From NCBI GenBank assembly GCA_027858345.1, contig JAQICX010000050.1, positions 1-37,464 of the forward strand: 37,464 nucleotides of DNA. Reading direction: 5' to 3'. The first letter of the stretch is position 1. The number at the start of each line of letters is the position of its first letter. The notes below the pieces were generated by a model. It ran no database searches, was not told where the DNA came from, and worked only from the letters and a program-made list of their open reading frames with translations. Positions 12,639 to 31,200 of the stretch are shown one piece after another. This DNA is from Kiritimatiellia bacterium (GTDB lineage: Bacteria > Verrucomicrobiota > Kiritimatiellia > JAQICX01). Position numbers and translations under genes: made by a program.

Positions 12639-12922
12639 AGTTATTAGTTTTTAGCTGTTAGTTCACTATCATCACATAGTGTCTAATTCTTGTCTATTTA
12701 ATTTTATAAAAGCCTTATTTTAAAGAGTTTTATTAGTCAAAAAAATAATTTTTAATGACGATGAGGACATCGTCGCTCCCAATGCTTCGCCTATTAGGCT
12801 ACGCAGGACAAGCCCGGTCCTACAAGACAATATTAATTTGCAAGTTTGGGAGCGAGAACGTCCTCGTTCTCATAAAGTGTATCAACCTAAAAATTAAGGT
12901 GTCTTGATCTTAACCTTAATTT
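12639..12922. repeat. Intergenic spacer with a covarying hairpin pair and word-like repeats
   Basis: The gap holds a TTATTAGTTTTTAGCTGTTAG run (12640-12660) and two hairpins facing each other, at 12755-12782 and 12846-12873. On matching strands both read ATGA - stem - AGGA loop - stem - GCTCCCAA, but the stems differ (GACGATG/CATCGTC versus GAGAACG/CGTTCTC) and both pair perfectly. Near the end, AAAATTAAGGT (12890-12900) pairs with ACCTTAATTTT (12913-12923) across the stop of the next gene. That may act as a weak terminator. No gene is seen. Confidence 0.65.
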
Positions 12923-13874: not shown

Positions 13875-14187
13875 GGTTTTGTAAAAAGTTTTCAGGCTCA
13901 AACTACTCCCATGTTTTTTTAGACCTGGTTCCTTGTAAATCAATGGTATACAGATTATTTAGCCTTCTTTTCACGTTTTTTTTCGTCGGTCACCGCCCGA
14001 CGCTACAGGTGCTGTATCTGCAAATGAAACTTAGTCCGCCAAAGCTCCTCCAGGGAACGCCAAGCCCCTGTTTGGCTTAATCATAATATGAGCAAAGCTC
14101 ATTTCACGCCCTTGTCTGTCGCACCGTAGTCAGGCACTGCGAAGGCGGATGCGAGGGGTATTCTGTTTCATAAGTTATGACAGTACC
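13875..14187. mobile_element. Repeat element A (short, diverged member of the GGTwCTGTCAAAA family)
   Basis: The left end GGTTTTGTAAAAAGTTTTCAGG and the right end ATGACAGTACC match, with changes, the ends of elements C and D. Inside are the hairpin unit CGTCGGTCACCGCCCGACG (13984-14002) and the GTCCGCC...CTCCTCC to GAGGGGT module (14034-14159). That module's central slot is expanded by about 100 bp relative to C and D. No transposase or open frame is present. No flanking direct repeat is seen, so it looks older. It fills the gap between two leftward genes. Confidence 0.6.
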
Positions 14188-23262: not shown

Positions 23263-23757
23263 AGTTCTGTCAAAAATTTGCAGGCTGAGCCTGCAACCAT
23301 TTTGTTATAAATCAGTAGGATACAGTTCGACACGTAATAAGTGATATGTAAGTTCCCGCTTTGCGAGACTATAATCATTATTTTTTCAATTCAACATCTT
23401 CCCCGAGCCCATTTCCTTCACACTCGGTTACATGGCTGTTCCTGCAAACAAACCGTTAACCTGCAAAGTTTACCCCACTGTAGCCGAGGTCAGCAGACCT
23501 CGGACAATGTTTGCGACCTTTTCAGCATTCGCTCTTCGAGACTAAGACTCAATAAGCCGGAGGTCAGCTAAAATTATGAATCTTGCATCTAACCCTTGTT
23601 CTTCATTTAAGCCCTGTAGCCGAGTCGCCCCGGCTCGGGGAAACAGCAAATCGGCTCTAGTCCGCCAAAACTCCTCCCGCTTTTAGGGGAGGTGTCCGAG
23701 GAACGAGGACGGAGGGGTGTTCTTTTTATGTTTTTTCATATGACTTTTGACAGTACC
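23263..23757. mobile_element. Repeat element D (second well-preserved member)
   Basis: The left 63 bases match those of element C at 59 positions, including hairpin TGCAGGCTGAGCCTGCA (23279-23295). The right end has the same CTCCTCCC module (23660-23718) and ends CTTTTGACAGTACC. The ends are AGTTCTGTCAAAA and, inverted, GGTACTGTCAAAA. The middle is entirely different from that of C: it holds GCCGAGGTCAGCAGACCTCGG (23483-23503) and a GCCGAGTCGCCCCGGCTCGG palindrome. The slot hairpin is GTCC-GAGGAACGA-GGAC. No flanking direct repeat is seen and no gene is present. After it, 23758-23918 holds only a CCCGC-AAG-GCGGG hairpin. Confidence 0.72.
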
Positions 23758-26970: not shown

Positions 26971-28701
26971 ATGAATATGTACAATAAAAAATTTAGAGCT
27001 GCACTGGCTATTTTATTATTCCTGTTAAATGGAATATTTTGTGCTTACAGTGCAGGTTTAAATGAAGATAATATTATTAAGCCATATGTTGGCAAATTAA
27101 CTACTGTTGAGATTGACAGAAGTTCTTTAGGGGTTATGGGAAAATATGTTACAGAGATGGTTGAAGATGATAGCGGTCAAATCATCGTGAAAGTTGTTGT
27201 TCCAGGTGTTCCTCCAAAAGAACGAATATCACAAGACGTTATAACGCGTTTCTCAGGCAGTGATGTAATTGTTTCCAATGTTCCAGCATTTAACTGGACC
27301 TATGGATGCAGCGCAACTTCGGCTGGCATGTTGTGTGGGTATTATGATAGAACTGGTTATTCAAATTTATATACAGGCTCAATAAATGGTGGGGTATGTC
27401 CTCTTGATAATTCAGCTTGGGGGGCTGCCACAGCACCGGGATCTGATGGAGAATGCTCGTTTGTCGCCAGTCATCAGGGAATTGATGGGCGAACGACCAG
27501 GGGGCATGTTGATGACTATTGGACTGACTATAATGATACCGGCGATCCATATTATGGAAAGTGGACACCTCATAATGCTGTGGATTCAGGAGATTGCCTT
27601 GCTGATTTTATGGGAACGAGCCAGTGGTATCCCGTTGAACTGAATAATATTGACGGAGGAACAAGTTTTGCTTACTATTTAGATGGCTCCTCATATTCAG
27701 GCATTACTTTTGGGGATCTTGCTTATGGTGTGCAACGCTATATTAGACATCAAGGATATTCCGTTTCGACTTATTATAATCAACTAATATATGGGTACAA
27801 CGGTAATACTGAAGGGTTTACGTTTGAGCAGTATATGGATTCAATTGATGCGGGGAATCCTGTGTTTATACATGTCACAGGTCATACAATGCTTGGGGTT
27901 GGATATGATGTGGCAACCAGTAATGTTTATCTTCATGACACATGGAATTATGATCAACACTCCATGACTTGGGGTGGACAGTATTCAAGTATGACACATG
28001 TTGCAGTTACTGTTGTCAACATTGATTCCACCATTCCTTTGGATGTTCCAACCAACTTTCAGGCAACGAGTGGAACTTATTCAGATAGTGTTGTCCTAAG
28101 TTGGGATAGTGTGCCAGGGGCTAATCATTATAAAATTTATTATGGAGACTCATTAGGCAATAGGCAAGGTTCTACAGGATGGTTTGCTTCAAATCCCGTT
28201 AATATTGGAGAAGATCCGAGTTCAACTTACTATTATTGGGTTGTGGCCGCATCATCGGCAGCTGGTGCGAATGAAAGTGATTTCAGTTTAGGTGCAACAG
28301 GCTATGCAATAACAAAGATGGTTTATAATGACTGGATTGCAACTAACTCAGTTCCTATTGGAGAACAGGCATGGGATGATGATCCTGCTGGTGACGGTAT
28401 TGAAAATATCTGGAAATATGCAATGGAATTAGACCCTTTAACTTTCTCAGCATGGAGCAATGTTTTTGAATATGCAATTAATAATTATGATGAAGAATTC
28501 TATATTACTTTTGATAAAGCGAAGGTTGCTGATGTTACAATAACTCCGGAGTGGAAAAGTTCTCTGTTGGATAGTGAATGGATGCCAACAAATATGGTCA
28601 GTCAATTGCTTGAGGCCGATTCGACAAGTGAAAAATGGAGATTTGGAATACCATTTTATACTAATGGCTTCATTCGTTTAAAAGTCTCTATGGAGCAATA
28701 A
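26971..28701 (+). CDS. Secreted C39-like cysteine peptidase with FnIII and PVC-type C-terminal domain
   Basis: The 576-residue product has a signal peptide (cut near AYSAG) and a propeptide-like stretch to about 100. A papain-fold C39-like domain (about 102-350) follows. The catalytic Cys is probably Cys113 in WTYGCSATSAGM, His305 lies in VTGHTMLGVGYD and Asp323 in LHDTW. A fibronectin type III-like module (about 358-445) follows, then a tail with DDDPAGDGIENIWKYAMELDP, which resembles TSP3/dockerin-like ends of exported PVC proteins. Two further domain Cys residues (143 and 162) could form a disulphide. I infer an extracellular peptidase; the substrate is unknown. It is transcribed alone from its own promoter and followed by the hairpin array. 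Confidence 0.85.
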   Translation: MNMYNKKFRAALAILLFLLNGIFCAYSAGLNEDNIIKPYVGKLTTVEIDRSSLGVMGKYVTEMVEDDSGQIIVKVVVPGVPPKERISQDVITRFSGSDVIVSNVPAFNWTYGCSATSAGMLCGYYDRTGYSNLYTGSINGGVCPLDNSAWGAATAPGSDGECSFVASHQGIDGRTTRGHVDDYWTDYNDTGDPYYGKWTPHNAVDSGDCLADFMGTSQWYPVELNNIDGGTSFAYYLDGSSYSGITFGDLAYGVQRYIRHQGYSVSTYYNQLIYGYNGNTEGFTFEQYMDSIDAGNPVFIHVTGHTMLGVGYDVATSNVYLHDTWNYDQHSMTWGGQYSSMTHVAVTVVNIDSTIPLDVPTNFQATSGTYSDSVVLSWDSVPGANHYKIYYGDSLGNRQGSTGWFASNPVNIGEDPSSTYYYWVVAASSAAGANESDFSLGATGYAITKMVYNDWIATNSVPIGEQAWDDDPAGDGIENIWKYAMELDPLTFSAWSNVFEYAINNYDEEFYITFDKAKVADVTITPEWKSSLLDSEWMPTNMVSQLLEADSTSEKWRFGIPFYTNGFIRLKVSMEQ

Positions 28702-28703
28702 AT

Positions 28704-28890
28704 GGTCGTTTCACGACCGTTGAATTGGAGCTAAGCTCCTGTTGAATCGCAACTATGTTGCTGGGGAATGCTCTTTTCGAGAGCGTTGAATTGGAGTAAA
28801 GCTCTTGTTTAACAGCAACGTTGTTGCAGGGTAACGAACGCAACGATCTTCGTTGCAAGAGCAAATGTCAAGACGACATTTGCATTGAAT
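28704..28890 (+). repeat. Tandem array of eight short hairpins with GTTGAAT-like linkers
   Basis: Starting 3 bases after the peptidase stop, eight stem-loops follow each other. GGTCG/CGACC (28704-28718), GGAGC/GCTCC (28727-28739), GCAAC/GTTGC (28749-28761), GCTCT/AGAGC (28770-28784), GGAGT/GCTCT with wobble pairs (28793-28805), GCAAC/GTTGC (28815-28827), GCAACGA/TCGTTGC (28840-28856) and GCAAATGTC/GACATTTGC (28861-28883). Loops are 3-5 bases. Linkers recur as GTTGAATT, GTTGAATC, GTTGAATT and ATTGAAT. Stems differ while pairing is kept. There is no coding frame, and the unit and spacer lengths do not fit a CRISPR array. Confidence 0.85.
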
Positions 28891-28906: not shown

Positions 28907-29042
28907 ACGACTCTGGACTCTGGACTCACGACTAAAAATTGTTAATCGTTAAATTGAAAATTCACCCTAGTTCTCCAAGGCTCCTCCCCGGCTAGTTCCG
29001 GAAAGCGGGATACTGCTCTGCGGGAGGAGGTAGCGAGCGAAG
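28907..29042. repeat. Word-like run and a CTCCTCCC palindromic module
   Basis: ACGACTCTGGACTCTGGACT (28907-28926) is a quasi-tandem run that continues to 28933. At 28979-29042 a module starts GGCTCCTCCCCGGCT, holds inner GCGGG/CTCTGCGGG pieces and closes GGGAGGAGG. The same frame recurs inverted at 37356-37436. The spacer 28702-29075 carries no gene. Confidence 0.55.
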
Positions 29043-29075: not shown

Positions 29076-30245
29076 TTATAGCAGAATAGCTTTGTTTAGT
29101 TTTTCCGAGATAGCTTGATCGGAATAATTCTGTGTTACAAAATCTCTGCCGTTGGCAGCCATTTGGTTTGCCAGCTCCGGGTTTTCAAGCAAAAGCTTAA
29201 GTTCCATTTCAAATTCCGGATAGTTGGTGAACCATAGACCTGCATTACTTTTTTTGCATTGATGTTTTAGCACTTCGCATTGTCCGTTGACAATGACCGG
29301 CTTTCCAGCAAGCCATGATTCAAGAATCACAATGCTCAAACTTTCATTTTGCGATGGATGACATAGTGCGACGGCATCAGCCATTGCGTTATGTTTGTCT
29401 TCTTCTGATACAAAACCAACATCAATAATATGTTTTTTAATCTCTTCGGATGCTTCAATTTCACCACTTCCGGTGAATACAAGTTTGATGTCAATTCCTG
29501 TTCTCTGGCGAAATGCTGCAAAGTAATCTATAAGCATTGGTGTGCCTTTAAGAACTTCTCTGCGTCCACAGTACAATATAAATGGGGAAGTGATACCATG
29601 TTTTTTGCTGAACGCTCCTGGACTAACTTCAAAATCTTCAATTGTCATTCCTATGACGGTTGCTTTTGATGTGTCGATGTCATAAAGTCTTTTTGCCAAA
29701 TTCATCTCGGGTTCTGTGTTGAATATGTATGAGCTAACACTTAGGAACATATTCTTAATTGTTTGAAGATATGCAAATGCTTCATCATGCAGGCATGGCA
29801 ACAGAATTGTTTTTTCAGGGCAAATTTGTGCTGAGTAATATATTAGTCCAAACAGGTAGGGGCTTACAATAATTTTATCATAGTTTTCTATATTGTCTTT
29901 AATATGCTTGTAGAGATCATCACTGCCTACATTGTTTTTATGCCAAAGTTCCTCTTCTTCTAATGTAACCTCTTCATAGTTTGAAATCTTGTTTTGAACT
30001 TTGTAAAAAATATCAAGTTCTCTATCTTCATTGGTCTTGAAAAGTATTACCTTAATATTCTGAAATGTTTTTTCACCTTCGGGTAGTTCGTTTTTCCAAG
30101 TAAAATGGTTGGTGGCACAAGTTGAGAGAATAGTGGCTGTATGCCCTGAATTTGCCAGACTTAATGCAGTTTCCCGCATTAGTGTTTCAGCACCACCTAG
30201 AGTAGTTCCTTCTGCAAATCTTGGTGCAACGAGAGCAATGTTCAT
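29076..30245 (-). CDS. Glycosyltransferase family 4 (GT-B fold)
   Basis: The 389-residue enzyme should transfer a sugar from a nucleotide-sugar donor with retention, probably for surface polysaccharide. The N-terminal domain begins IALVAPRF, then LGGAETLMRETALSLANSGH, the usual GT4 acceptor-side motif. The donor domain has ILYCGRREVLKGTP (about 223-236) and the Glu-x7-Glu motif ESLSIVILE (301-309). The start ATG shares one base with the stop of the preceding gene (TAATG), so the two are coupled. It follows the flippase region and supports an O-antigen or capsule role; donor and acceptor are unknown. Confidence 0.93.
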   Translation of the reverse strand: MNIALVAPRFAEGTTLGGAETLMRETALSLANSGHTATILSTCATNHFTWKNELPEGEKTFQNIKVILFKTNEDRELDIFYKVQNKISNYEEVTLEEEELWHKNNVGSDDLYKHIKDNIENYDKIIVSPYLFGLIYYSAQICPEKTILLPCLHDEAFAYLQTIKNMFLSVSSYIFNTEPEMNLAKRLYDIDTSKATVIGMTIEDFEVSPGAFSKKHGITSPFILYCGRREVLKGTPMLIDYFAAFRQRTGIDIKLVFTGSGEIEASEEIKKHIIDVGFVSEEDKHNAMADAVALCHPSQNESLSIVILESWLAGKPVIVNGQCEVLKHQCKKSNAGLWFTNYPEFEMELKLLLENPELANQMAANGRDFVTQNYSDQAISEKLNKAILL

Positions 30246-30724: not shown

Positions 30725-31200
30725 AGTTCTGTAAGAAGTATTTTGTCTTGTAAATCACCGAGACAAAAGTCATTAGTTGTTAGCTCTTAGTTATTAGCTA
30801 AGACACTGCCGTGAGCAGGTGCAAGCTTTGCTTGTATTTTATCTCCACGGGTTTACACCCGTGGCTACATGCTATCGCTTCCCGCATACGGGACTAGCAG
30901 AGCTAGCCATCTGTAATCAGAATTGCTAACATGCATTGTTCCATAATCCCGCAGACCGGGACTAGCAGAGCTAGACTTAGCACTTTTTTGGCGATGCATT
31001 CTTTTTGAGCAACGCAACTTTCGTGTTTTTTCGTGCCTTTCGTGGTTCAAAATTCTTCTTAATAATCCCTTTAATCTGCGAAATCTGCGGATAAAACTCT
31101 TTTGGTTGCGGGGTGCCACTTCGCTGCTGTCGCAGGCTCCAGCCACTCTTAGGCTCCGCCACGAGAGACCGCCCTAAGTTCATACGTGGCTAAAATTTAT
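30725..31200. repeat. Repeat-filled spacer: hairpins and word-like runs
   Basis: From left to right: a TTAGTTGTTAGCTCTTAGTT run (30773-30792), GACACTGCCGTGAGCAGGTG (30802-30821, also in element B), hairpin CCACGGG-TTTACA-CCCGTGG (30845-30864), twin units CCCGC...CGGGACTAGCAGAGCTAG (30881-30906 and 30948-30974), a TTTCGTGTTTTTTCGTGCC run (31019-31037, continuing) and an ATCTGCGAAATCTGCGGATA run (31073-31092). The left edge AGTTCTGTAAGAAG faintly resembles the element A-D end. The two leftward frames here (30865-31183) look non-coding. Confidence 0.55.

Follow-up and report, generated by a model that had tools for sequence, protein, structure and literature searches.

How can a run of small hairpins keep its fold and its linkers while the letters of its stems change from one hairpin to the next? 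The question is raised by eight mini-hairpins at positions 28704-28890 of the window, by which we mean the whole 37,464-nucleotide stretch analysed here (contig C142 of a Kiritimatiellia genome of 4.03 Mb in 256 contigs, whose leucyl-tRNA synthetase shares 67-68% identity with the enzymes of Pontiella sulfatireligans, one Kiritimatiellales MAG and one further MAG, a position in or near Kiritimatiellota). The array begins 3 nt past the stop codon of an ORF for a C39-family peptidase (PF13529, at 26971-28701); on the other side, a glycosyltransferase gene (29076-30245) runs convergently towards it. All eight hairpins were found where the initial annotation had placed them, and its description of seven perfect stems and one wobble stem was borne out: seven are perfectly paired over 5-9 bp, and the fifth, GGAGT-aaa-GCTCT (28793-28805), requires two G.T wobbles for pairing.

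The description of all eight as one array, however, holds in part only, as hairpins 1-6 alone form a regular array with a 22-nt period, each unit consisting of a 7-nt spacer followed by a hairpin of 15 nt, which pairs over at most 6 bp around a 3-nt loop and often has a mismatch in its outermost pair. The spacers of these units follow the pattern G(T/G)(T/G)(T/G)AA(T/C), and the period extends back across the peptidase stop codon, where a degenerate spacer, AATAAAT (28697-28703; this and all following parts on the + strand), holds the TAA, keeps the 22-nt register and starts a unit-model match at 28697. The sequence right ahead of the first hairpin, GGAGCAATAA, also stands ahead of an array on contig C27. 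Hairpin 1, GGTCGT-ttc-ACGACC (28704-28718), differs by a compensated change from GGTCAT-ttc-ATGACC, the form present in C27 and C186. Spacers GTTGAAT at 28719-28725 and 28741-28747, both matches to the unit model, precede hairpin 2, t-GGAGC-taa-GCTCC-t (28726-28740), and hairpin 3, c-GCAAC-tat-GTTGC-t (28748-28762), which were recognized by their pairing and by stems that recur in other arrays. The next spacer, GGGGAAT (28763-28769), comes after the GCAAC hairpin on C27 and C187 as well, and hairpin 4, GCTCTT-ttc-GAGAGC (28770-28784), in which the extra sixth, innermost pair is T.G, is homologous to GCTCAC-ttc-GTGAGC in C187. A third GTTGAAT (28785-28791; unit-model match) leads to hairpin 5, in full t-GGAGT-aaa-GCTCT-t (28792-28806; placed by array comparison), and GTTTAAC (28807-28813; unit-model match) leads to hairpin 6, a-GCAAC-gtt-GTTGC-a (28814-28828), again identified by pairing and a recurrent stem. 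Comparison among arrays puts the end of the regular part at GGGTAAC (28829-28835). Hairpin 7, GCAACGA-tct-TCGTTGC (28840-28856), belongs to a different dispersed repeat (GTAACGCAACGATCTTCGTTGCAAGTGC) with exact 23-nt matches on more than 10 other contigs; hairpin 8, GCAAATGTC-aagac-GACATTTGC (28861-28883), evident from its pairing, had no counterpart elsewhere among the members of the array family, and a spacer-like ATTGAAT (28884-28890), read directly from the sequence, closes the run. Immediately past it, at 28907-28935, lies a heptamer-like tandem, GACTCTGGACTCTGGACTCACGACT, of a kind comparable to short degenerate tandems in other intergenic regions.

Such a density of hairpins is far from what chance provides. 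Perfectly paired hairpins that do not overlap number 7 (42 bp) in the array, while 2000 resamples under a first-order Markov model averaged 0.64 and never exceeded 4. It is the densest hairpin spot within the whole window, and its predicted RNA fold is stronger than that of any of 200 shuffles (z = -5.8 for the + strand, z = -5.2 for the - strand).

The key test proposed by the initial annotation was a search for similar arrays elsewhere in the genome. A covariance model built from 12 units, together with pattern searches of genome stretches, recovered about 15 arrays and roughly 50 units dispersed over different contigs, as judged from 150 of 1524 model candidates scored and a genome sampled in stretches; the pattern searches gave 21 and 14 matches, where the pattern reversed as a control gave 6 and 1. 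Besides the window, arrays lie on C25, C71, C77, C148, C172, C186, C187 and C196, with two each on C27, C171 and C219 (the last two mutually inverted). Their G+C content, where computed, is 38-41%. Stems are mostly 4-6 bp with 3-nt loops and are drawn from a small vocabulary (GGAGC, GCAAC, GAGGC, GGGC/GTGC, GCTCAC/GCTCTC/GCTCTT, GGTCAT/GGTCGT, AGAAGC and GATGCT), while the number and order of units differ among arrays and the units step by 22 nt, by 18 nt or irregularly.

Other palindromic repeats were encountered in the same genome. In the arrays of C196 (L058) and C25 (L185), some sit inside array hairpins (in the loops of GCC and GTGC modules), apparently as nested insertions. A six-hairpin chain with differing stems and ctattaatatta-type spacers (L022:5330-5466) represents a separate variable-stem family, also present in L023, L024, L028 and L170. 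A dispersed single hairpin, GGGAGC, a 6-bp stem with a GTCCTC-like loop, then AT(K)AAAA, occurs at window position 12774 (-) and at L016:3726, L010:3095, L026:11988 and L034:1898; its stem varies two-sidedly (GACGAT, GAGAAC, GATAAT), and its loop and flanks are constant. Positions 275-9112 of L016 (contig C219) are cassette-like, with repeats of 150-400 nt each 2.3-3.7 kb among small same-strand ORFs, and C36 carries an integron-integrase-like C-terminal fragment.

Alignment of the 12 units indicates how the fold is kept. At the five inner positions all 60 cells are paired, and every failure falls on the outermost pair; overall 91.7% of cells are paired versus 57% in shuffles, two-sided changes occur in 25 cells versus 7.6, and the covariation score is 1.005 versus 0.294 (0.09-0.21 in slid controls), figures somewhat overstating conservation since the units were picked for their hairpin look. 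The claim that fold and spacer are retained while stems change is thus upheld, with two-sided changes far above shuffles. The accompanying proposal of selection on structure fares less evenly: among homologous modules of different arrays, paired up by hand, there are 7 two-sided paired changes and 3 G.T, yet 7 changes give A.C and 9 more are unpaired in other ways. The outcome that the initial annotation had named as refuting, unpaired stem changes in homologous arrays, is thus seen in part, and strict selection on each copy is unlikely. Because closely related copies (C77, C172, C25 and C171; C196) also show unpaired changes, individual copies decay, even though the fold, to judge from the alignments, is retained over deep divergence.

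The positions of the arrays bear on whether the fold serves a message. Genes of unrelated kinds stand beside them, among them those for EPSP synthase, glycosyltransferases, GGDEF-EAL proteins and prepilin peptidase. Most arrays are intergenic; those of the window, C27 and C71 follow stop codons (by mechanical ORF calls), and those of C186, C77, C25, C172, C196 and C171 lie upstream of start codons (judged by eye), positions upstream of starts being as frequent as positions downstream of stops. Since arrays also sit upstream of start codons, a 3'-UTR-specific role is unlikely, and the earlier suggestion of a structure at mRNA 3' ends does not extend to the family, most members of which precede a start codon or stand well away from any stop. 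The GTTKAAT strand is generally directed away from the nearest gene. A replication-strand bias was considered and rejected: read in array orientation, 8 of 10 contig stretches have a negative GC skew, but gene direction confounds this signal.

A broader form of the same idea, that arrays in mRNA leaders and tails form hairpin chains which stabilize or regulate the message, or offer single-stranded spacers to a binding protein, has several observations in its favor. The predicted fold of the window array is strong, a stop codon precedes two arrays by no more than about 10 nt, and several are 20-100 nt away from a start codon. Every deviation in the window is a G.T when read in the sense of the gene, and where an array stands upstream of a gene, transitions appear as A.C on its own strand, equivalent to G.U in the gene-sense RNA. 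This asymmetry, however, is confounded, by eye, with a transition bias also seen outside stems. Moreover, the arrays occur in both orientations relative to transcription and beside unrelated genes, related copies show 9 unpaired changes that are not wobbles, and Rfam 15 gave no match above the gathering score at the window array. We consider selection for RNA structure unlikely.

A mutational process could also account for paired changes. In template switching (quasipalindrome correction) one arm of an imperfect hairpin is rewritten from the other, so that arms co-evolve without selection, and slippage between identical spacers would duplicate units. Consistent with this, the two-sided changes include A-T to T-A swaps, arrays vary in the number and order of units, and other palindromes of this host likewise show co-varying stems. 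Yet many copies retain C/T or T/T mismatches immediately next to the 5-bp stems, related copies keep their unpaired changes, and chains of at least 4 hairpins, of which 7 were found in 624 kb of the host (in stretches partly chosen for repeats), numbered 0 in 707 kb of same-class genomes, with about 0-0.7 in shuffles. Palindrome copying seems unlikely as well. An array of DNA sites for a dimeric regulator or nucleoid protein, which the 22-bp period (about two helical turns) of the six window units would place on one face of the helix, is very improbable, as the dyads vary, though a dyad-reading protein would fix their sequence, other arrays step by 18 bp or irregularly, and the neighboring genes have no common function.

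A different kind of explanation is suggested by the company that the arrays keep. Those of C77, C25, C172 and C171 are fused at one junction, GTTTTTT followed by CGTCGGTCaacGCCCGACGCTACAG, to a CTAC/GTAG-tagged REP ending in CGTCGGTCaacGCCCGACG-CTACAG, of which the genome has about 45 copies. A search for the array-REP composite found 51 matching places, most of them starting at the junction with other modules upstream, and the modules that replace the array there include another family of hairpin pairs. BIMEs are defined by REPs that are regularly combined with further short modules, and four array composites have this arrangement; the window array itself is not joined to a GTAG REP. A copy of the high-copy REP that is fused to arrays elsewhere (CGTCGGTC..GCCCGACG CTACAG) lies at window 13978-14050 (+) and is 95% identical to the C77 copy.

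The CTAC/GTAG tag is a hallmark of REPs mobilized by RAYTs (PMC2817692, PMC8266576). Three proteins of the host, encoded on C225, C62 and C25, pass the NCBIfam RAYT cut-off (NF047646), and CTACAG palindromes flank the genes on C225 and C62; no Y1 transposase gene flanked by GTTKAAT hairpins was found, and the RAYTs checked show none. An IS200-type TnpA is encoded on C251. CTACA-tagged hairpins, most of them REP-like, number 29 in 626 kb versus 0-3 in shuffles and join one tag to about 11 stem sequences, including CCACGGGT, CAACGGGT, CCCCGGGT, CCGAGGTC, CCGACCTC, CGGCGGTC and CGTCGGTC. A fixed tag with a free stem is therefore also the behavior of the host's CTACA-tagged palindromes. Further REP-type elements were noted. 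The second densest hairpin spot of the window, at 30780-30990, is a cluster composed of CCACGGGT-ttac-ACCCGTGG with CTACATGC and then more short palindromes; at 23503 (-) a REP hairpin, CCGAGGTC-tgct-GACCTCGG, carries CTACAG, a tag that on other contigs accompanies the stem CCGACCTC. At C40:13266-13606 (L031/L038) a Y1 transposase gene, apparently a broken RAYT, is split over two frames and adjoins tandem REPs of the form ACGGGT..ACCCGT with GGCTACA.

The arrays resemble GTAG/CGTC REPs and BIMEs with their RAYTs (PMC3733652, PMC2817692, PMC8266576) in being short perfect palindromes with 3-5-nt loops and a conserved unpaired tag, for the most part intergenic and combined into mosaic composites, with stems that may differ within one genome and with RAYT genes present. 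GTAG REPs were reported in PVC bacteria, e.g. O. terrae (PMC3733652, PMC2817692, PMC8266576), and REPs with a conserved tag but different stems within one organism have been published (PMC3733652). The initial annotation's statement that no named class fits was thus too strong, tagged variable-stem REPs and mosaic BIMEs being close (PMC3733652, PMC2817692), although the arrays depart from them in tag and in head-to-tail layout. The tag of the arrays is a heptamer, GTTKAAT (GTTTAAT, GTTGAAT, GGGGAAT and similar), unlike the GTAG/CGTC tags; up to six hairpins with differing stems follow head to tail, whereas REPs are commonly inverted dimers; the stems are slightly shorter than those of typical REPs (about 6-9 bp) and the copies, though dispersed, are fewer; and no cognate transposase was found beside GTTKAAT hairpins. 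REPINs are also similar, as miniature repeats that fold into hairpins, depend on their length and folding and often carry compensatory changes (PMC3116915, which mentions SDRs as well). A REPIN, however, is two inverted REPs in one long hairpin, whereas the arrays are several small independent hairpins in direct order.

Nostoc SDR4, SDR5 and SDR6 were reportedly described by Elhai et al. in 2008 as very small repeats with a common structure and compensatory changes, often accompanied by heptamer repeats. The arrays resemble them in being tiny, structure-sharing and compensated, and the sequences are unrelated as far as known. An origin of the spacer in tandem heptamers, or an embedding like that of the Nostoc SDRs, was rejected, as no hairpin-free GTTKAAT tandems were found in 626 kb of the host genome. 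Double-hairpin elements of fungal and algal mitochondria are mobile-looking small hairpins that share the changing stems but differ in being organellar. CRISPR was rejected because the arrays have constant spacers and variable hairpins, the opposite of identical repeats and unique spacers, and integron attC because the spacer fits GTTRRRY but the core-like GTTGAAT is direct rather than inverted, with the wrong order and spacing. Beyond the host, a DNA search of 56 same-class genomes and a model search of 288 (host included) gave a single weak outside match, in G245 (E = 0.009 per genome, about chance level for that many searches). There, at L081:1480-1610, a five-fold 22-nt tandem of ACCCC-taa-GGGGT with GTTGAAC-like spacers has constant stems and variable spacers, and no convincing array came out of the unit-model search of the remaining same-class genomes. 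An exact-pattern scan of 84,980 species, a set to which the host genome possibly does not belong, found none.

On balance, the window array is probably one member of a REP/BIME-type family of multi-hairpin repeats, dispersed between genes, with a non-GTAG heptamer tag and spread, as we infer, by a single-strand transposase. Its unit would be a conserved unpaired 7-nt tag (GTTKAAT or a variant) plus a short palindrome that is largely free to change its letters provided that the single strand still folds. Units would be joined head to tail, shuffled among arrays and combined with GTAG/CTAC-tagged REPs into mosaics. An HUH/Y1 single-strand DNA transposase, either a RAYT or a related enzyme able to recognize tag plus hairpin shape, may act on the composite element, or the array may spread by hitch-hiking; active copies would stay foldable while resident copies slowly decay, and any influence on an adjacent mRNA would be a side effect. 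What this genome displays directly is the repeated array with its architecture, the two-sided stem changes, the mosaic joining to REPs and the RAYT genes; mobilization and recognition by shape are inferred. Against the REP-type reading are the lack of a GTTKAAT-flanked Y1 gene, a tag that is neither GTAG nor CGTC, and the unfused window copy.

More tentatively, the head-to-tail GTTKAAT array might represent a new class of tagged palindrome, whose machinery would read only the tag and the hairpin shape, so that one array can carry many differing stems. On the preferred reading, the tag is new for a REP/BIME-like palindromic element, and the head-to-tail layout of mixed stems is unusual. The REP/BIME-type reading extends REP-type mosaics to Kiritimatiellota and to a tag outside GTAG/CGTC. 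While most small bacterial palindromes retain their letters, the GTTKAAT arrays and CTACA-tagged REPs of this host retain tag and fold and vary the letters. Thus, the natural stem variants of this organism make recognition by shape versus sequence testable.
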